Shown in pieces: positions 5,015-35,155 of a DNA stretch of 64,000 bases. The DNA is taken from assembly GCF_002879855.1 (NCBI RefSeq), contig NZ_PNYB01000009.1:1-64000 (forward strand). The letters are read 5' to 3'. The notes under the pieces are model-generated. The model was given only the letters and a program-made list of their open reading frames with translations. It made no database searches and had not been told where the DNA came from. The translations under genes and the position numbers were made by a program. Origin of the DNA: Trinickia soli (GTDB taxonomy: Bacteria > Pseudomonadota > Gammaproteobacteria > Burkholderiales > Burkholderiaceae). Each line of letters begins with the position of its first letter. Position 1 is the stretch's first letter.

Positions 5015-7288
5015 ATGCGCTACTCGAAAGAAATCGAAAAATTTCTCTACGGCCAATATTTTTTCGGGGGACTGCGCATGGCCGTCGGCGTTTCGCTGCC
5101 GGCCGTTCTGTGCCTCGTCGTGTTTCGCCAGGCCGAGCTCGGTTTCACGATCGCAACCGGCGCGCTGGGCGCCTGCGTCGTCGATATGCCGGGCCCGCTC
5201 AAATACAAGCACAACGAGATGCTCGTGTGCAGCGTGCTCGGCTTCGTTTCCGCGCTTGCAACCGGGCTGGCGACGTTCAACGTCTTCGCGCTCTGGGCTA
5301 CCGTCGTCGCGCTGACGTTCGCGCTGTCGCTGACGGTCGTCTACGGCAATCGCTGGCCGCAGATCAGCTTCGCGACGCTGTTCATGATGGTGATGACGCT
5401 CGAAGAGCACTTCACGCCATGGCATGCGCTCACGAATGCGGCCTGGATTCTCGCAGGCGGCCTTTGGTACACCTACTGGGCGACCTTCGTGTCGCAATGG
5501 CAGGCGCACCGGATCGAAAAGCAGGCGCTGGCCGAAAACGTGTTCGCCTGCGTCGACTATCTGCTGGCCCGGGCCGATTTCTACGACGTCGACGCGAACC
5601 TCGACGACTGCTACCGCAATCTCGTCGAACGGCAAACGACGGCGGTCGAGATGCAGGACGCCGCGCGTGCGATCGTTTTGCGCAATCTGCCGAAGCTGCG
5701 GCGCGGCAAGCTCGACGCGGGTCGCGTGAAGCTGTTCAACCTGTTTATCAACACGGTCGATCTGCACGAACTGTTCGTCGGCGCGCATACCGACTACCCG
5801 CTCCTGCGCAGCACGTTCGGCAATGCCGACGTGATGATGTTCTTTCGCGATTTGATCCGCAAAGCCGCGCGCGATCTCGAGGACGTAGGACTCGCTGTGC
5901 TGCACGACCGGCGGCCCGAAGCGCACGTGAACATGAAGGCGGAAATGCGCGCGATCGAATACGAGATCGAGCTCATGCGCAAGCAGGGGCTGCCCGAGCG
6001 CAACCCGGAGGCTTATGCGGCTGCCTCTTCCTCGTTCCGGCGCATCTGGAGCGGCGTCCGGTTCATCGACAAGATGAAAAAGAATCTCGCGGCCGAAACG
6101 CCGGTTGCCCAAACCGAGCTGCGCATCGACCATAAGTTGATGCGGTTCCTGTCGGGCAGGCGCGTGCCGCTGCGGCAAATCTTTTCGAACCTGACGATGG
6201 CATCGCCGAGCTTTCGGCACGCACTGCGCGTGACGATCGCCGTCGCTCTCGGCTTTTGGCTCGGCCGGCTGCTGCCGCTCACGAACGCGTACTGGATCGT
6301 CATGACGACGCTGATCATCATGAAGCCCGGCTATTCGCTCACCAAGCAGCGCAATACGCAGCGGATCGTCGGCACGGCGATCGGTTGCGCGGCGAGCCTC
6401 GGACTGATCTGGTTCGTCAAATTGCCCGCGGTGCTGCTCGTTTTCATGTTCGCATCGATGGTGATGAGCTACAGCCTGCTGCTGTTCAACTACGCGGCGA
6501 GCGTCGTATTCACCTCCTCGTACGTGCTGCTGCTGTTCCACCTGCTCGCGCCAGGCAGCATGCGCATCATCGGCGAGCGTGCGATCGATACCGTCATCGG
6601 TTGCGCGCTCGCGATCGCGGCGAGCCATTTGTTTCCCTATTGGGAATATCGGCTGATGGGCAATCTTGTCGAGGAGATGCTTGCCGCGACGCGCCAATAT
6701 CTGGACAGCGCCTGGTGGTGGGGCAACGTGCGTCATGTCGCGGGTGGCAAGGCTGCCGAAATGCCAACGAGCGAGACGCCGCGCGACACGGTCAACGCGG
6801 ACGAACGCGACTTCGGCTATCGGCTCGCGCGTAAGAACGTCCACATCGCATTCGCGAACCTCGCGCAGGCATTCCGACGCATGATGCTCGAACCGAAGTC
6901 GCAGCAACGCTTCGTGCCCGAGTTGAACGACCTGCTGGTGCAAAGCCATGCACTGGCCGCGCACATCACGGCCGCCGCGCCGCTGTTGCGCAGCATGGCG
7001 CAGCACGAGCCCGACGGCTCGCAGGCGCTGCAACGCGCGCTATCGGCCGTGCGCGAGAACCTTACGCGCGCGCAGGCGGGCAAGCCGCTGCCGACCGATC
7101 AGGGCGAAACGACGAAATTGCTCAAGCGCGACCTCGATACGATGGTGGTCGAGATCGAGCGAGCCGGCACCCAAACCGCTGAGTTCGTCGGCGAAATCAA
7201 GCTGCTCGCGCTGCAATGCAAGCAGATGCTGGCCGCATCGCTGCTGATCCGCAAAGACGTCGAGGTGATTCGTCTGCCGCAAACTTAA
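5015..7288 (+). CDS. FUSC-family inner-membrane protein (YccS/AaeB-like)
   Basis: A 757-residue integral membrane protein with two similar hydrophobic blocks, at about residues 20-150 and 400-530, each followed by a long soluble helical region. This is the FUSC (fusaric acid resistance) layout of YccS, YhfK and AaeB. The family is thought to export aromatic acids, but no substrate can be read from the sequence. I chose the ATG at 5015 (MRYSKEIEKFLYGQYFFGG) because the family resemblance begins there. The frame is open further upstream to 4859, but that stretch has no membrane-protein character. It is divergent from recC and convergent with the next small gene, so it is probably monocistronic. 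Confidence 0.85.
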   Translation: MRYSKEIEKFLYGQYFFGGLRMAVGVSLPAVLCLVVFRQAELGFTIATGALGACVVDMPGPLKYKHNEMLVCSVLGFVSALATGLATFNVFALWATVVALTFALSLTVVYGNRWPQISFATLFMMVMTLEEHFTPWHALTNAAWILAGGLWYTYWATFVSQWQAHRIEKQALAENVFACVDYLLARADFYDVDANLDDCYRNLVERQTTAVEMQDAARAIVLRNLPKLRRGKLDAGRVKLFNLFINTVDLHELFVGAHTDYPLLRSTFGNADVMMFFRDLIRKAARDLEDVGLAVLHDRRPEAHVNMKAEMRAIEYEIELMRKQGLPERNPEAYAAASSSFRRIWSGVRFIDKMKKNLAAETPVAQTELRIDHKLMRFLSGRRVPLRQIFSNLTMASPSFRHALRVTIAVALGFWLGRLLPLTNAYWIVMTTLIIMKPGYSLTKQRNTQRIVGTAIGCAASLGLIWFVKLPAVLLVFMFASMVMSYSLLLFNYAASVVFTSSYVLLLFHLLAPGSMRIIGERAIDTVIGCALAIAASHLFPYWEYRLMGNLVEEMLAATRQYLDSAWWWGNVRHVAGGKAAEMPTSETPRDTVNADERDFGYRLARKNVHIAFANLAQAFRRMMLEPKSQQRFVPELNDLLVQSHALAAHITAAAPLLRSMAQHEPDGSQALQRALSAVRENLTRAQAGKPLPTDQGETTKLLKRDLDTMVVEIERAGTQTAEFVGEIKLLALQCKQMLAASLLIRKDVEVIRLPQT

Positions 7289-7303
7289 GGCATGAGGCAA
7301 GCG

Positions 7304-7516
7304 CTACTGTGATGCGCCGCTCGAGCTTGCGGCCGCGACGCCGCTCGCCACCTGGGCTGCCGTCGACGTGGCCGCGGCATTCTGCTCGTCGTATTCGCGC
7401 TTGCCTTTGATTGCGTTGTAAAGGAACGTGCCGATGACGATCAGCACGATAACGACGACGAGCACGGCGACGCGGGTTGTCGGATTAGGTTTGTTCGGTT
7501 GGCGCGGATCATTCAT
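7304..7516 (-). CDS. Small single-pass membrane protein (70 aa)
   Basis: A short polar N-terminus (MNDPRQPNKPNPTTR) leads into one strongly hydrophobic segment at residues 16-34, followed by a Lys/Arg-rich turn and an Ala/Ser-rich tail. The positive residues just after the membrane segment make orientation uncertain. I chose the ATG at 7516, because upstream in-frame sequence is unlike a protein start. No clear Shine-Dalgarno sequence is visible. The gene converges with the FUSC gene 15 bp away. I do not recognise a function. Confidence 0.6.
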   Translation of the reverse strand: MNDPRQPNKPNPTTRVAVLVVVIVLIVIGTFLYNAIKGKREYDEQNAAATSTAAQVASGVAAASSSGASQ

Positions 7517-7630
7517 GGGAAGAGGTCTCGACGGGCATCGACAGGCCGCCGGAAAAATAAGAGATAAGGCGGAAGCCGGCATTCTACGCGCATCGGCACG
7601 GCGCCGACGCCGCCGCCGAAATGGCGCGCA

Positions 7631-8089
7631 TCACCGCACCGGCAACGCCGTCGAGTACTTGATCTGCTCCATCGCAAAGCTCGAACTGACGTCGAACAGC
7701 GCCACCTCCCGGATCAATTGCTTGTAGACCCTGTCGTAATCGTCGATGTCCGACACGACGACGCGCAGCAGATAGTCGGTCTCGCCGCTCATCCGGTAGG
7801 CCTCCACGACTTCGGGAATATCGCGCACGGCCTGCACGAACCGGCTCGCCCACTCTTCCGTATGCTGATTCGTGCGCACGGCGACGAACACGGTGGTGCC
7901 AACGCCCAGCTTGCGTGCGTCGCATAACGCCACCTGCGCACGAATCACCCCTTCCTCTTTGAGCCGCTGCACGCGCTTCCAACAAGGCGTTTGCGACAGA
8001 TTGACACGGCTCGCCAACTCGGCGATCGGCAGCGTCGCATCGGCCTGGAGCAGCTCGACTAGCTTCCGGTCGATTGCATCCATTCCCAT
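7631..8089 (-). CDS. Lrp/AsnC-family transcriptional regulator
   Basis: A 152-residue protein of standard Lrp length. The N-terminus MDAIDRKLVELLQADATLPIAELASRVNLSQTPCWKRVQRL (given here only as a description; helix-turn-helix at residues 17-45) is typical. The rest is an RAM/AsnC effector domain with the G-E-T-D-Y motif near residue 105. The start at 8089 has GGAG about 7 bases upstream. It is divergent from the cupin dioxygenase gene, and a perfect Lrp-type box lies between them at 8103-8117. It therefore probably autoregulates and controls the dioxygenase, with a sulfur amino acid as a plausible but unproven effector. Confidence 0.9.
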   Translation of the reverse strand: MGMDAIDRKLVELLQADATLPIAELASRVNLSQTPCWKRVQRLKEEGVIRAQVALCDARKLGVGTTVFVAVRTNQHTEEWASRFVQAVRDIPEVVEAYRMSGETDYLLRVVVSDIDDYDRVYKQLIREVALFDVSSSFAMEQIKYSTALPVR

Positions 8090-8102
8090 TTCGATCTCCA
8101 GA

Positions 8103-8117
8103 TAGAAAATTTTTCTA
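8103..8117. promoter_or_regulatory. Lrp box between the Lrp-type regulator and the dioxygenase gene
   Basis: The 15-bp sequence TAGAAAATTTTTCTA matches the E. coli Lrp consensus YAGHAWATTWTDCTR at every position and is nearly palindromic. It ends 14 bp upstream of the regulator's start codon and lies 126 bp upstream of the divergent gene. The surrounding 150 bp are strikingly AT-rich for this genome. Binding by the neighbouring regulator is inferred. Confidence 0.8.
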
Positions 8118-8242
8118 CATTTGCCCGCTATCGTGAAATTATAGGGAAACTCTTTTTATCGATAAAACGATATAAATGCTCCATCGATCAATCGGACGTA
8201 AGCCGTCGTGCGGCGCGTCCCGCAACAAAAGGCACGAAACCC

Positions 8243-8911
8243 ATGGGCCAACACTTCGAATCGTTATCGCCGTCACCCGTTGCGTCGTTCAATACGCGCG
8301 GCGTTGCCGTCCAACGCGCGCCGGCGGACGTTCACGCGGAAGCCGCCGCCGCAATCGACCGGTTGCGAGACGCGCTGGACGCCGCGTTCGCGGCGGTCCC
8401 TGACGGCGCCGATCCGGCCGAAGCGCAAGGCGCCGCGTTTGCGCAACGCATGCGAAACGCCCTCGCCCAAGCCGCTGCCGAGGAGGTCCTGCTCACACCG
8501 GAGCAATCCGAGGGCGCCGCGAACTGTTACCGGCGTCATCTGTTGATCGCCGATCCGCAAGGCCGTTACGCCGCGGCGGCGCTCGTGTGGCAGCCGGGGC
8601 AGGCGAGCCCCGTGCATGGCCATCACACCTGGTGCGGCTACACGGTACTCGAAGGCGTACTGCAGGAAACGCTCTACGAATGGGACGACGCCACGGACTG
8701 CGCCTCCGCGCTAAGGACGCAGGCGCGCGCCGCCGGCGCCGTTTCGTACGTCCGCGCCGGGCTCGCGGCGATACACCGGCTCGCCAATACGGGCACGCGG
8801 CCCGCAGTGTCATTGCATGTGTACGGCGTGCAGGGCGAGCGCATTGCCACGCACGTCAATCGCCTCGTCGCGACAGCGGTGGAACCCTCGCTCGACATGG
8901 GCGTGCGCTAG
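8243..8911 (+). CDS. Cupin thiol dioxygenase-like protein (cysteine dioxygenase family)
   Basis: A 222-residue protein of the cysteine dioxygenase/3-mercaptopropionate dioxygenase cupin family. The metal-binding HxH sits in SPVHGHHTWCGYTVLEG at about residues 115-131, and the third histidine is in SLHVYG near residue 193. The Cys after the first histidines (HTWC) occupies the place of the Cys-Tyr crosslink residue found in many family members. The predicted reaction is oxidation of a thiol such as cysteine to the sulfinic acid with Fe(II) and oxygen; the substrate is not certain. It is divergent from the Lrp-type regulator, the usual arrangement for a regulator and its target. The first 50 residues are variable. 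Confidence 0.82.
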   Translation: MGQHFESLSPSPVASFNTRGVAVQRAPADVHAEAAAAIDRLRDALDAAFAAVPDGADPAEAQGAAFAQRMRNALAQAAAEEVLLTPEQSEGAANCYRRHLLIADPQGRYAAAALVWQPGQASPVHGHHTWCGYTVLEGVLQETLYEWDDATDCASALRTQARAAGAVSYVRAGLAAIHRLANTGTRPAVSLHVYGVQGERIATHVNRLVATAVEPSLDMGVR

Positions 8912-27763: not shown

Positions 27764-29074
27764 TCACGCTGGGTCGTGCGCGCGCCCCCAGGTCGCGGCT
27801 TCGAGATTGATTTCAGCCACCGCTGCGGGCGTGAGAGCCTCCAGCTCGGGATGGGCGTGGCGCGCTGCGCGCGCGGCCTCATCGGCTACGCCGGCCTCGG
27901 CCGCTTCCGCGATCGCCAGGATCGCCCCGAGCAAGCCGACGCGATGCACGATCGCATCGCCGATCTCCGCAACGAGGCCAACCTGCACCAGCGCTTCTCC
28001 GGGGACTGCATCGCCAAGCAGCACATGGACGAGCGAAAACACGCCGGTCATGAAAGCGGCATCGACGAACCGCTCGTCAGTAGGCCGCACACGGCTTGCC
28101 GCGAGTTCCATGAAGCGTGAGCGCGCACCGGCCAGCTGTGCGAGCGGGTCCCGGCGCCAGGACAAATCGCCGCTCGAGGCATACAGCAGCAATTGCGCCC
28201 ACCGGGCGATCTGCCGCGTGCCGGCGGCGAGGATCGCCTCGCGTACGGACGCGATACGCCGCCCGAAGCCAAAGGCGCTCGAATTGGCGAGCTGCAACAG
28301 CTGCATGACAACGGCAGGGCTGCGCTTGAGCTCGGTCTCGAGCTCGATCAGCGGCGCTTCGGATGCAATCAGGGCGAGCATGCGTAGCAGTGACTCTCGC
28401 GACGGATCGCCGCGCCGAACGGAAAGCACCTGCGGACGCGCGAAGAAATACCCCTGAAACAAGTCGAAGCCAAGGCCGTGCGCGAGCGCATAGTCGTCCT
28501 GCGTTTCGATCTTCTCCGCCACGAGCGTCCTGCCGTGTTCTTGCACGGCCGCCGCGAGCGTCGGCAGCCGCTCCCGGTCCACGTGCAGGAAATCGATCTT
28601 GACGATGTCGATGTGCGGCAGCAGCGCCACGAGCTCGTCCGACAGCTCGCAGATGTCGTCGAGCGCGATCCGAAACCCCGCGCGGCGCAGCTTGTCGATG
28701 CGCTCGAGCAGCAACGCATCGACCGTCACCGTTTCGAGCACTTCGAGCACGAAGCGCTCGGGCGGCAGCAGCATGACCATGTCGTCGAGCAACATCTCGC
28801 GACAGACATTGACGTAGCCGCGACGCGTTCCGAGCGTCGCCGCCACGCCGATGCTGCACATCGCGTTGGCTACAACGCGGGCCGTGGCGCGTGCGTCGTG
28901 ATCGATCAGAGCGCGGTTGGCATTGCTGCCGCGAAACAACAACTCATAAGCCTCGAGTGCGCCGTCCCGGGTCAGGATCGGCTGACGTCCGAGATAGAGG
29001 CATTCGACTTCGCAGGCGGCGCGCGCCTCGCAAAACGGCGACGCATGAGTCCGTACGGTTGCAGATTCGGCCAT
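27764..29074 (-). CDS. EAL-like/HDOD signalling protein (YuxH/CdgJ type)
   Basis: A 436-residue protein. The N-terminal half is a degenerate EAL domain, with AYELLFRG in place of the catalytic EALxR and ALDDI in place of the DDFG motif. The C-terminal half is an HDOD domain (VMQLLQLANSSAFGF, ARWAQLLLYAS). Such proteins lack phosphodiesterase activity and act through protein interactions on motility or c-di-GMP networks. A close paralogue in domain order lies at 33815-35155. It is divergent from the GGDEF-EAL gene, with 275 bp between their start codons. Confidence 0.88.
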   Translation of the reverse strand: MAESATVRTHASPFCEARAACEVECLYLGRQPILTRDGALEAYELLFRGSNANRALIDHDARATARVVANAMCSIGVAATLGTRRGYVNVCREMLLDDMVMLLPPERFVLEVLETVTVDALLLERIDKLRRAGFRIALDDICELSDELVALLPHIDIVKIDFLHVDRERLPTLAAAVQEHGRTLVAEKIETQDDYALAHGLGFDLFQGYFFARPQVLSVRRGDPSRESLLRMLALIASEAPLIELETELKRSPAVVMQLLQLANSSAFGFGRRIASVREAILAAGTRQIARWAQLLLYASSGDLSWRRDPLAQLAGARSRFMELAASRVRPTDERFVDAAFMTGVFSLVHVLLGDAVPGEALVQVGLVAEIGDAIVHRVGLLGAILAIAEAAEAGVADEAARAARHAHPELEALTPAAVAEINLEAATWGRAHDPA

Positions 29075-31257: not shown

Positions 31258-32712
31258 ATGGTAAAGGCGGCGCTGCTCGATAAGCTATGGGCGCGTATGA
31301 GCGAGCGCGGCGACTTCCCGATGCTGTCGCAGTCGCTGCGCACGACGATGGCCGCCATGAAGAACGACGATCTCGACTTCACGGGACTCGTCCAGGTCGT
31401 CCTGTCGGATTTCGCGCTGACGCAGAAGGTGCTACGTCTGGCGAACTCGGCCATGTACATGGCATTCGGCGGCAACATCACCACAGTCACGCGCGCCCTG
31501 ATGGTGCTCGGCATGGACGCCGTCGGCCATCTCGTCGTCGGACTGAAGCTCGTCGATCACTTCCAGCACAGCGCGCCGCATCGCATCGACGCCAAGCTCG
31601 AACTGAACCGCACGATGCTCTCGGGCTGCGTGGCCCGCAAGCTCACCGAGCGCGGCGATCTGCGCGAGGGCGAAGAAGCTGTCGTCTGCACGCTGATGCG
31701 CCAGGTGGGCAAGCTGCTCGTCGTCTTCTACCTCGAAGCGGAATGGGAACAGATCCGGCTAAAGATGCGCTCGGGTGGGCTCGACGAAACCGCCGCCTGT
31801 GCCGCGGTGCTGGGCGTCTCCTATGAAGAGCTCGGCCAGGAAGCCGCGACCAGGTGGCGTCTGCCCGACACGATTCGCGCGGGCATGGGCACCTACGAGT
31901 CCGAGGATCAAGGCCCGCCGCAAGTCCAGTGGCTGCGCGCCGTCACCAATTACTCAACCGAAGTGGCCGATGCGCTGAGCACGGCCGGCGTCTCGGAACA
32001 TGCGTGCGAAACGCGCATCGCCGAATTGGCGCACCGCTACAGCCGTGCGCTGGCAACGGACGCGGAAGAACTCGCCGCGATAAGCGTGGCGCTCGCGCGC
32101 GAAGAAGCGGGCGAAGGCTTCATGAAAGAGATCGACGAGTTGCGCGCGAATGCCGACGCCATCGCGCGCGCCAGCGTCGACGCCGAAACGCGCATCGAAG
32201 CCGGGCTGGAGGATTTGCGCGCGCTGCCCTCGGAGAACGCACTCGCGCCTGTGCTGGCGCTCGCCTCCGAAACCGTGCTGGCGGGGTTGAGTTTTACCCG
32301 CACGGTCGTGTTCGTTCGCCAGTCGTCGGGCGTGTATAAAGCACGCCTTGGGTTTGGTCGCGACGTGGAACAGGCTCTGCCTTCGCTGTTCTTCAAGGAA
32401 GCGTTCGAGCCCGATGTCTTCCATTTGGCGATCGCCAATTCGGTCGGTATCTTCATCGAGAATGCGCGCGAGCCGAAGATGATTGCACGGCTGCCGCTGT
32501 GGTACCGGCATGCGTTCGACGATGCACGCTCGTTCGTGCTGCTGCCCGTGATCGCGCACCAGTCGACGGTTGCGCTGCTCTACGGCGATTGGTCGCTGGC
32601 GCAGGAACCGCGCAAGATCTCGCAAACGCAGATGGGAGCGCTCAACGAACTTGCGCGCGAACTCGGGAGATTCTTCGCGCACGCGCCGGCCACGGCGGTC
32701 GAGACGCTCTAA
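31258..32712 (+). CDS. HDOD-domain signalling protein with C-terminal GAF-like region
   Basis: A 484-residue protein. The HDOD domain covers about residues 15-210 (MLSQSLRTTMAAMKNDDLDF, VLRLANSAMYMAFGG, VGKLLVVFYLEAEWE). A helical segment at about 260-330 leads to a C-terminal region with the feel of a GAF domain (SFTRTVVFVRQSSG, FVLLPVIAHQSTVALLYGDW). HDOD proteins of this type occur in Gammaproteobacteria and Betaproteobacteria next to c-di-GMP genes. It lies 75 bp after the GGDEF-EAL gene and may be co-transcribed. Its stop overlaps the stop of the next, convergent gene. Confidence 0.85.
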   Translation: MVKAALLDKLWARMSERGDFPMLSQSLRTTMAAMKNDDLDFTGLVQVVLSDFALTQKVLRLANSAMYMAFGGNITTVTRALMVLGMDAVGHLVVGLKLVDHFQHSAPHRIDAKLELNRTMLSGCVARKLTERGDLREGEEAVVCTLMRQVGKLLVVFYLEAEWEQIRLKMRSGGLDETAACAAVLGVSYEELGQEAATRWRLPDTIRAGMGTYESEDQGPPQVQWLRAVTNYSTEVADALSTAGVSEHACETRIAELAHRYSRALATDAEELAAISVALAREEAGEGFMKEIDELRANADAIARASVDAETRIEAGLEDLRALPSENALAPVLALASETVLAGLSFTRTVVFVRQSSGVYKARLGFGRDVEQALPSLFFKEAFEPDVFHLAIANSVGIFIENAREPKMIARLPLWYRHAFDDARSFVLLPVIAHQSTVALLYGDWSLAQEPRKISQTQMGALNELARELGRFFAHAPATAVETL

Positions 32713-33632
32713 GGCTGTTGCGCAGTAGGCAGCTCCGGCGCCTCGGCCATTTGCCGCGTGCGGAGTGTATGCGGCTTACGGCGCCTCAGCCAATTGTCCG
32801 CGTGCAGTTCCGCCTTGTCGTCACCATTGTCGGCATAGTATTGCAGCTGGATACGATGTAAGTTGGTGCGCTCGTTTTGCAGCCTGGACAGGAAAGCCTC
32901 CAGATCGCTCTCCGTCGGCGCATAGTGGCCGCTGTAACTCGAAATGACGGTGATTCGAAGCGCGGCATCGGTCTTGAGCGTACCGGCCATTCGCACCGGG
33001 GCGCCTGCGAAAAACGACGTGTGCTGAAATTGATGCACCCGCTTCGGGGCAGCATAAAGTTGATGATTTTCATCGACCACGAAGATCAACTGGTCCGAAC
33101 GCCCCCCGACCTGCGCCAGATAATCTCTTACCGCGAGCGCCGATGGGGACAGGAAAATGCGACCGCGATCGATCCTGGCTTTGTACAGATGCCGGTCGGA
33201 CGCATCCAGATACTCGACCCCACCGCGAGCGGTCGGCGCAAGCTTGTCTTCGTGCTTGTCCAGCCAATCGAAAAACGATAGACGCGGCTTGCGCCTCCTT
33301 GTGAAGGCTCGAAACAGCGAGCGAAACAGCGATAGCCCCTTTTTTCCCGAGTGGTTGACATGCTGGTCTAGCCAGATACGGTGCAGCCGCTCCAATTCCA
33401 GCCCGTATCGGTGCTTTTTGTCGATTCTTTCCAGGTAGTAATCGCGCTCGACCCGCCTGCCGCTCTTCGAAAAATCGTCGAAGTAAGGCTCCAACGCAGC
33501 GGCCAGTTTTCTCCAATTCTTTTGGGCTTCGAGGATGCGACGCCATTCGGGGCTACGCTTTTCGACGTGATTTCGCACCCTCTGCCAGCGTTCGGCCGCG
33601 CGAGTGGTTGCGATAGGCGGGTGAGTCGACAT
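32709..33632 (-). CDS. IQM-like protein (plant/fungal calmodulin-binding family domain)
   Basis: A 307-residue protein without signal peptide or membrane segment. It follows the conserved block order of plant IQM proteins and their fungal relatives: LERIDKKHRYG (residues 67-77), FFDWLD (120-125), YLDASDRHLYKA (141-152), LIFVVDENHQLY (182-193), FQHTSFFAG (202-210) and SGHYAPT (234-240). Plant IQMs read IDPRHRYG, PFFYWLD, YLGPKER-x-Y, FQHSSFLAGG and SGHYRPT in the same order. The IQ calmodulin-binding motif itself is not visible. The biochemical role of this domain is not known. Codon use looks less GC-extreme than in neighbours. It sits between c-di-GMP/HDOD genes but points the other way. Confidence 0.7.
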   Translation of the reverse strand: MSTHPPIATTRAAERWQRVRNHVEKRSPEWRRILEAQKNWRKLAAALEPYFDDFSKSGRRVERDYYLERIDKKHRYGLELERLHRIWLDQHVNHSGKKGLSLFRSLFRAFTRRRKPRLSFFDWLDKHEDKLAPTARGGVEYLDASDRHLYKARIDRGRIFLSPSALAVRDYLAQVGGRSDQLIFVVDENHQLYAAPKRVHQFQHTSFFAGAPVRMAGTLKTDAALRITVISSYSGHYAPTESDLEAFLSRLQNERTNLHRIQLQYYADNGDDKAELHADNWLRRRKPHTLRTRQMAEAPELPTAQQP

Positions 33633-33814
33633 GAGAGCCCCCTATCGGGCAAGAGAACGCGCCAGGGCGACGAGCCGATGGCCACCAACGAAGAGGTATA
33701 ACGTGACCGCCCGCTGCCGGTAAAGCGAATGGGCGGAGCACGGCGTGTCATGCGCTCATCCTGCTCACAGTGTGGACAACCCGCGGCGGTAAGCGCCGCC
33801 TTGCCAGACGGCGC

Positions 33815-35155
33815 TCACTCCTCGAAACGCTCGAGCCCCGCGTTGTCCTTGCTCTGATCGGCCGTGCTGGCCCAGGCGGCCGCGGTAATCGCGATCTGCG
33901 CCAGTTCACCCGAAGTCAACGGCGCAAGGGCCGCGCTCGCAGCGTCGAGTGCTTCCCAATCGCCGCGTTCCAGCGCTTCCATGGCGTGCAGCAACGTGCC
34001 GAGCTGCCCTTCGCGACGCAGAATCGCGGCACGAATGTGCGTGGCGAGCGTCAGCGCGTCCAAGGTGTTTTCCATCGTATCGCCGAACACGGCGTCGACG
34101 AGCGAGAACACGCCCGTCAGGAACGCGCCGTCGACGATCTTGCGGTTCGCATGCGAGAGCCGCATCGCCCCCAGTTCCATGAAGCGTGCGCGCGTCGCTG
34201 CCAATTGCACCAAGGGATCTTCTTCGAGGCGCACCTTGCGCCCATCGGCGTAGAGCAGCAATTGCGTCCAGCGCGCGATACGGTTCGTGCCGGTCGCGTT
34301 GATCGCATCGCGCAATGTCGCCACCTTGCGCCCGATGCTCATTTCGCCCGAATTGGCGAGGCGCATCAGGTGCATGACGAGAACCGGGTTGAGCTTGAGC
34401 TCGGCTTCGAGCTGCGCGACGCTCGGATCCGACGAGAGCAGCCGTAGCAGATTGAGCAACGCCTGACGCGGCGCATTGACGCGGCGAGCGCTGTGCTTGC
34501 TGCCGCGCGCAAAAAAATAGCCTTGGAACAGGTCGAACTGCAACGCCTTCGCTTGCTCGAACGCTTCATGCGTTTCGATATTGAGAGCGATCAGCAGCTT
34601 GCCGGCCGATTTGAGCGCCGCCGTCAACCGCTGCAGCAATTCGGGCGCGACGCGGGCCGGGTCGATCTTGATCGCCTGGACGTAGGGCAGCAGCTTCGCG
34701 AAGGCTTCGTCGGGCTGGCGCATGTCGTCGATCACGAAGCGGTAGCGCTTTGCATGCAGCGTCACGAGGCGTGCGATCAGGTCCGCATCGACCGGCTGCT
34801 GCGGCGAGATCTCGAGGTAGAAGCGGTCTGGAGCGAGCCGTGCGATCGCATCGGAAAACAACAGCGGACGGCTGACATTGAGATAGCCGGGATGGCCGGA
34901 AAGCGCGGTGCGGACGTCGCTCGCGCCGAGCGCCGCGAGCAATTGCGCTGCGGCGGCATCCGCTGCCCGCTTTGCATCGGGCTCGTCGCCTTCGGCAACA
35001 GGTACTTCGCGAAGATGCAACTCGAAGCCCCGCAGCAGGCCATCGGCATCGACGATCGGCGCTCTGGCGGGATATTGCACGGGGCGAGCGGGCGCCGCAT
35101 CGAATCGGCCTTCGGCGCCGGCCGGGCGCTGTGCCTCGTCGGTCATCGTCCCCAT
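33815..35155 (-). CDS. Degenerate EAL/HDOD signalling protein (second copy)
   Basis: A 446-residue protein of the same layout as the one at 27764-29074: a degenerate EAL half (GFELHLREV instead of EALxR, VIDDMRQPDE instead of DDFG) and an HDOD half (VMHLMRLANSGEMSIGRKVA, ARWTQLLLYADG). The shared string QFDLFQGYFFAR/GFDLFQGYFFAR marks them as paralogues, though they are well diverged. The start at 35155 has AGGAGA 8 bases upstream. A perfect -10 TATAAT (plus-strand 35239-35244) lies upstream without a clear -35. It probably acts through protein-protein contacts. Confidence 0.85.
   Translation of the reverse strand: MGTMTDEAQRPAGAEGRFDAAPARPVQYPARAPIVDADGLLRGFELHLREVPVAEGDEPDAKRAADAAAAQLLAALGASDVRTALSGHPGYLNVSRPLLFSDAIARLAPDRFYLEISPQQPVDADLIARLVTLHAKRYRFVIDDMRQPDEAFAKLLPYVQAIKIDPARVAPELLQRLTAALKSAGKLLIALNIETHEAFEQAKALQFDLFQGYFFARGSKHSARRVNAPRQALLNLLRLLSSDPSVAQLEAELKLNPVLVMHLMRLANSGEMSIGRKVATLRDAINATGTNRIARWTQLLLYADGRKVRLEEDPLVQLAATRARFMELGAMRLSHANRKIVDGAFLTGVFSLVDAVFGDTMENTLDALTLATHIRAAILRREGQLGTLLHAMEALERGDWEALDAASAALAPLTSGELAQIAITAAAWASTADQSKDNAGLERFEE

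Follow-up and report, generated by a model that had tools for sequence, protein, structure and literature searches.

A putative accessory effector-like protein of Trinickia soli with a toxin-type domain seemingly shared with IQM proteins

Introduction

IQM proteins are reported to bind calmodulin (PMC6008652), and IQM1, an interaction partner of CATALASE2, to raise the activity of the latter (PMC8435237). iqm1-1 plants are described as better resisting the biotrophic Pst DC3000 (PMC8435237), the family as plant-specific (PMC8469326, PMC10887524) and the IQ calmodulin-binding motif as having the form [ILV]QxxxRxxxx[RK] (PMC8469326). For bacterial type III effectors, the hrpII box is given as TTCG-N16-TTCG (PMC3878972, PMC11261895).

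Here, we study the gene P0001 of Trinickia soli. It lies in a window of 64,000 nucleotides (contig NZ_PNYB01000009.1), i.e., the whole stretch of DNA that was analysed. The original prediction framed P0001 as an IQM homologue among c-di-GMP genes. Sequence comparison shifts this frame to a toxin-type domain, seemingly shared with IQM, in a protein that is accessory and effector-like.

Results

The gene and its product

P0001 and its two regions are located as follows.

32709..33632, minus strand: P0001, 307 aa, putative accessory effector-like protein (from open reading frame, translation and relatives)
33255..33449, minus strand: N-terminal region (residues 62-126) with the blocks Y-Y-L-E-x-x-D-x-x-H-R-Y-G and F-F-D-W-L-D, common to a subset of relatives (alignment A8)
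32817..33218, minus strand: core domain (residues 139-272) with YLxxxxR, FxH[ST]SFxxG, AG and SGHYxP, from 36 aligned copies and the confident part of an AlphaFold2 model

The open reading frame claimed for 32709-33632 is real, with the strand, left unstated before, being minus; the plus-strand reading of this interval is not open. The 307-codon frame comes with an AGGGGG ribosome-binding-like stretch. All five motif blocks are found in P0001 in the claimed order, i.e., IDKKHRYG (residues 70-77), FFDWLD (120-125), YLDASDRHLYK (141-151), FQHTSFFAG (202-210) and SGHYAPT (234-240), and about 38 residues trail the core. The IQ motif is missing, as had been said: neither [ILV]QxxxR nor the longer form occurs in P0001, and there is no Pfam IQ row at E <= 1. 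P0001 has zero matches in NCBIfam and nothing over the cut-off in Pfam, where the sole row (PH_GEF_YEL1, E 0.053) is far below it. PDB sequences gave no credible match, with the rows being chance. No Pfam or NCBIfam model covered the domain in any copy scanned.

Spread of the family

Searching with P0001 as a single sequence, relatives were found in 7/61 genomes (own included; best foreign E-values 8.9e-15 and 6.3e-11) and, within the genus, in 3/11 genomes, again including its own. Loci L002, L003 and L010-L012 are reached from P0001 alone. Among plasmids, matches were obtained in Nocardia (9e-9), Eleftheria (2e-6) and Nostoc (5e-5), while a fourth in Listeria (E 0.6) is likely chance. The scan of genome contigs yielded 17 loci out of 44 candidate stretches. 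As labelled, their taxa are Pseudomonadota, Bacteroidota, Actinomycetota, Acidobacteriota, Planctomycetota, Cyanobacteriota and Bdellovibrionota, plus one Verrucomicrobiota MAG (L024) whose label is doubtful. The latter shares near-identical genes with a Zoogloea MAG (L027), pointing to a misbinned contig.

Using the family profile, 17/299 Burkholderiaceae genomes match, three of these in part only. For 398 genomes of the phylum, 5 match including the own one, and the four foreign matches are partial only. Three scans of viral contigs, with pattern matches in 31, 0 and 19 stretches, yielded no relative. The family is sporadic. Alignments A4, A5 and A8 include the window sequence, such that E-values of P0001 under the respective profiles hold by construction.

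Some relatives differ in their layout. Legionella jamestowniensis (L028) has two core-domain genes in tandem (5569-6834 and 7065-8405) and no immunity-like gene at the locus. A looser relative, in which mainly AG and SGHYxP are recognisable, matches four times each in genomes G382 (L080, L083, L084, L085) and G154 (L045); by eye, some of these G382 proteins have signal-peptide-like starts. L007, L009, L003 and L028 have, again by eye, a similar-looking region N-terminal to the core, which is nearly the same in L007 and L009 and may be a delivery domain.

Toxin carriers and immunity-like genes

To look for carrier domains, we ran the Pfam and NCBIfam models on 16 relatives of nearly full length. 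A recognised carrier domain is over the cut-off in 5/16 relatives.

L015: PAAR, 3.3e-15 (T6SS)
L016: Rhs_assc_core, 1.3e-10
L014: Rhs_assc_core, 5.1e-19
L026: eCIS_core, 1.4e-27
L027: Fil_haemagg_2, 2.3e-62; three core-domain copies

Two further relatives, L010 and L013, show WXG100_2 at 25.0 and 24.3 bits, i.e., below the 27-bit cut-off; in L010, two genes annotated as WXG100 lie upstream. The remaining nine of the 16 have no carrier domain in either collection, and the same holds for P0001. The core forms the C-terminal tip of the PAAR and RHS proteins and is internal in the eCIS-core and filamentous-haemagglutinin proteins. In 12/20 loci (L010-L029) it ends at most 5 residues from the stop, while 48 to 222 residues lie beyond it in the other 8, including L026 and L027.

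A homologous small gene is found directly downstream of the core in 6/20 loci, all six among the 12 with a C-terminal core; the RHS protein L014 is one of them. Among the downstream open reading frames, blastp links L011, L014, L018, L019 and L021 with each other and, separately, L010 with L013. A profile of four partner genes was run against the 2503 open reading frames of L010-L029 and the window. It matches genes in L020 (7.2e-23) and L021 (9.3e-7), both directly behind the domain. The four seeds were picked by blastp among the downstream genes, where L021 was already weakly linked and the L020 gene was absent from the list. Beyond that, L015 is matched at 0.16 and otherwise only the profile's own seeds up to E 5. 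In L020 (Burkholderia multivorans), two bases separate the toxin stop from the start of the partner gene. No Pfam family covers the partner gene. These downstream small genes have the anatomy of predicted toxin/immunity pairs, in Burkholderiales as well as in Bacteroidota.

The partner gene was not found in the 20 Burkholderiaceae family-profile loci nor in 7 loci from the 398-genome phylum sample; these 27 loci include the window, and several repeat L002-L009. Since the partner is present in Burkholderia multivorans, Burkholderiaceae hold both sorts, with and without it. The gene next to the 3' end of P0001 is a convergent HDOD gene.

These data bear on the strongest alternative, namely that P0001 is an antibacterial toxin, or the orphan of one, which is delivered into bacteria by a T6SS and from which the producer is protected otherwise. 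We consider this rather unlikely but worth keeping in view. Related domains tip PAAR and RHS proteins, the immunity-like gene stands at six loci with Burkholderia multivorans among them, and the own genome encodes four T6SS sheath (VipB) genes. However, P0001 is without a carrier domain, the partner profile matches no open reading frame of the window and none in the own genome (the latter scan being without positive control), and none of the relatives sharing the N-terminal blocks of P0001 has an immunity-like gene.

Type III marks

An hrpII (HrpB-type) box was found at 5/17 Burkholderiaceae loci (L030, L036, L037, L040, L043). The scan covered 500 bases before the stop-to-stop frame and the first 120 bases of the frame, requiring an exact match. 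Partial matches (L044-L046, L079-L085) were left out, and L035 has just 1 base upstream. The 17 loci include the window (L034) and the near-copies L031/L033 and L038/L039/L041, none of which has a box. In dinucleotide shuffles, the count averages 0.33 with a maximum of 4, such that 0/300 reach 5, and 17 other spacings yield 0-2 loci. The whole window holds 6 boxes vs. 7.0 expected.

Possible protein starts are MGNCFSGC in L037 and MGSCISS in L040. Starts of the MGNC/MGSC type are typical of lipidated effectors. P0001 has no such start and no hrpII box within 500 bp upstream.

SctV is over the cut-off in 5/5 genomes of the box-bearing loci. This is consistent but not telling, given that 12/17 family-positive vs. 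13/17 family-negative genomes have it, where the latter were hand-chosen (eight from the genus, nine from the family). The own genome has one FlhA and two SctV over the cut-off, with a third SctV below it (661.9 / 677.3 bits; cut-off 692.25). The option of a host-directed protein, raised in the original prediction, gains from kin with type III marks; P0001 itself has neither mark.

Possible relation to IQM proteins

For comparison with IQM, we used provisional strings for a plant IQM and an ascomycete IQM-like protein in place of database sequences. Against the bacterial profile, which contains the window as 1 of 22 rows, they score E 7.2e-34 and 2e-35, respectively, while the best of 400 shuffled strings reaches 0.15. 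Against P0001 alone, the values are 6.7e-14 and 4.4e-18 (small set). The sequence collections that we searched are genomes, plasmids and viral contigs, and not of plants or fungi. A literature search for the IQM motif strings turned up no plant sequence. Another, on links between IQM or calmodulin binding and polymorphic toxins, or on such a toxin domain, led nowhere in a literature that leaves most subscription journals uncovered.

Little doubt would be left about IQM homology if the provisional strings are sound; we treat it as a lead. As such, the claimed kinship survives on the strong match of the strings to the profile. As a frame for P0001 it does not, since the verified relatives are bacterial toxin/effector modules, some of them with immunity-like genes.

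Conserved residues and structure model

We compared 36 aligned copies of the core domain, i.e., matches of the A5 profile (which contains the window) with E <= 1e-15 and at least 90 model positions. The three L024 copies were dropped from this tree and residue set; because one of these is identical to the first copy in L027, the latter went as well. H204, G217 and H236 are invariant in 36/36 copies, and S234, G235 and Y237 are retained in 35/36. P0001 conserves H204, S206, G210, A216, G217, S234, G235, H236, Y237 and P239. It deviates from the family consensus at G190, G200 and G224, and sits unplaced on a long branch of the domain tree. Within the N-terminal region, Y65, E68, R75 and W87 are invariant in alignment A8 (7 sequences), which also shows variants of the HRYG and FFxWLD blocks in other bacterial relatives. 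The AlphaFold2 model is confident for the core, with a weaker stretch at 161-180, and of low confidence in the N-terminal region that holds the first two motif blocks.

P0001 could also imitate IQM by binding only, i.e., dock to a host partner without catalysis. The reported calmodulin binding of IQM proteins and the interaction of IQM1 with CATALASE2 (PMC6008652, PMC8435237) would agree with this, as would the match of the provisional strings to the bacterial profile. Nevertheless, we find it improbable: elsewhere the domain is the tip of PAAR and RHS proteins, one of which has an immunity-like partner, and two histidines, serines and a tyrosine are among the best-conserved positions. More improbable still is a decaying or silent effector remnant. 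The long branch and the departures at G190, G200 and G224 would be expected of one, but the 307-codon frame is open and has a ribosome-binding-like stretch, and H204, S206, G217, S234, G235, H236 and Y237 are all kept.

Genomic slot

We compared the homologous block across 10 other genomes of the genus. P0001 sits in a slot between two conserved genes.

32713..33814, no strand: accessory insert, the slot between the HDOD and EAL-HDOD genes (tblastn comparison with 10 congeners)
31258..32712, plus strand: HDOD-domain protein, conserved neighbour (HDOD 2.4e-35; in 10/10 congeners)
33815..35155, minus strand: partial EAL + HDOD protein, conserved neighbour (HDOD 9.7e-06; in 11/11 genus genomes)

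The 3' end of P0001 overlaps the end of the convergent HDOD gene by 4 bases. Further out in the block are a PAS-GGDEF-EAL gene and a second EAL-HDOD gene (27764-29074). In both EAL-HDOD proteins (27764-29074, 33815-35155), the EAL profile is matched only from about position 112, which indicates that the half with the EAL signature is absent or degenerate.

In 8/10 congeners the slot spans only 14-86 bp between the tblastn ends, while its neighbours show 64-91% identity. The other two have contents of their own. In G003 (L069 1438-4128), there are two other genes, by eye a D-serine dehydratase and a LysR regulator; the slot seemingly takes up cargo repeatedly. In G008 (L070 1397-2407; also L002, L042), it holds a distant homologue of P0001 with 336 aa and 26% identity in opposite orientation. 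By eye, the N-terminal unit of this homologue (HRYG-like + FFDWL) is seemingly present twice in tandem. No direct or inverted repeats of more than 7 bases were found between the 90-100 bases at both insert ends. By base composition, P0001 (GC 0.581, GC3 0.682) is less G+C-rich than four c-di-GMP neighbours (0.643-0.668 and 0.790-0.815).

P0001 is thus an accessory gene within a conserved block. The c-di-GMP setting, which the original prediction named, looks incidental and says little on function, as the slot is empty in 8/10 congeners. That P0001 is an internal component of the c-di-GMP pathway tied to its EAL, HDOD and GGDEF neighbours is hardly credible: it does lie between the HDOD and EAL-HDOD genes, on the same strand as the latter, but the neighbours are kept where the slot is empty, the G008 homologue is inverted and the base composition of P0001 differs.

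Discussion

The explanation we favour, if with little more than even confidence, is that P0001 is an accessory injected effector built on a delivered-toxin domain and probably enzymatic. It would belong to the partner-less sort, alongside Burkholderiaceae kin of which some have type III marks. The host receiving it would be a eukaryote, i.e., a plant, fungus or protist, with injection by one of the bacterium's own type III or type VI systems. There, some host molecule would be modified at a probable active site made up of H204 and H236, together with S206, S234 and Y237. The domain seems to recur in IQM proteins of plants and fungi, such that the IQM pathway may be what P0001 targets or mimics. 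In Arabidopsis, this pathway promotes CATALASE2 activity, and resistance to a biotrophic bacterium rises when IQM1 is lost. A biotroph aided by an injected IQM-like protein would fit this, although that is speculation.

A wider scenario is possible but rather doubtful. Here, a superfamily of bacterial toxin/effector enzymes would have the plant IQM proteins as its eukaryotic members. Its delivered toxin domain, with the conserved His-Ser / Ser-Gly-His-Tyr site, would have been taken up or lent by plants and fungi, with an IQ motif added for calmodulin control. Host-associated bacteria, P0001's included, would inject copies to push the same host pathway.

If true, one domain would connect a plant family active in defence and seed germination with injected host effectors and with interbacterial toxins that have immunity partners. 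IQM biochemistry would become directly testable through the bacterial copies, which would provide a first biochemical lead for the IQM family, and a candidate effector family would be named in Burkholderiaceae.

Comparison with known systems

Among folds compared with the core of P0001, Stay-Green (7y5y; 10% identity) and cytidine deaminases score at the level of common arrangements, and gelsolin/ADF and PPK1 rows score much like them.

Within Burkholderiaceae, members of the domain family resemble HrpB-regulated type III effectors in having hrpII boxes or MGNC/MGSC starts, while P0001 differs in having neither mark.

Plant IQM proteins are described as plant-specific, and P0001, unlike them, has no IQ motif. 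By the provisional strings, plant IQM and fungal IQM-like proteins have the same motif blocks as P0001 in the same order.

Finally, P0001 differs from the immunity-paired tips of bacterial polymorphic toxins (on T6SS PAAR, RHS and similar carriers) in that it is free-standing, with no recognised carrier, no immunity-like gene and about 38 residues after the core. The core itself and its invariant residues are the same in these tips and in P0001.
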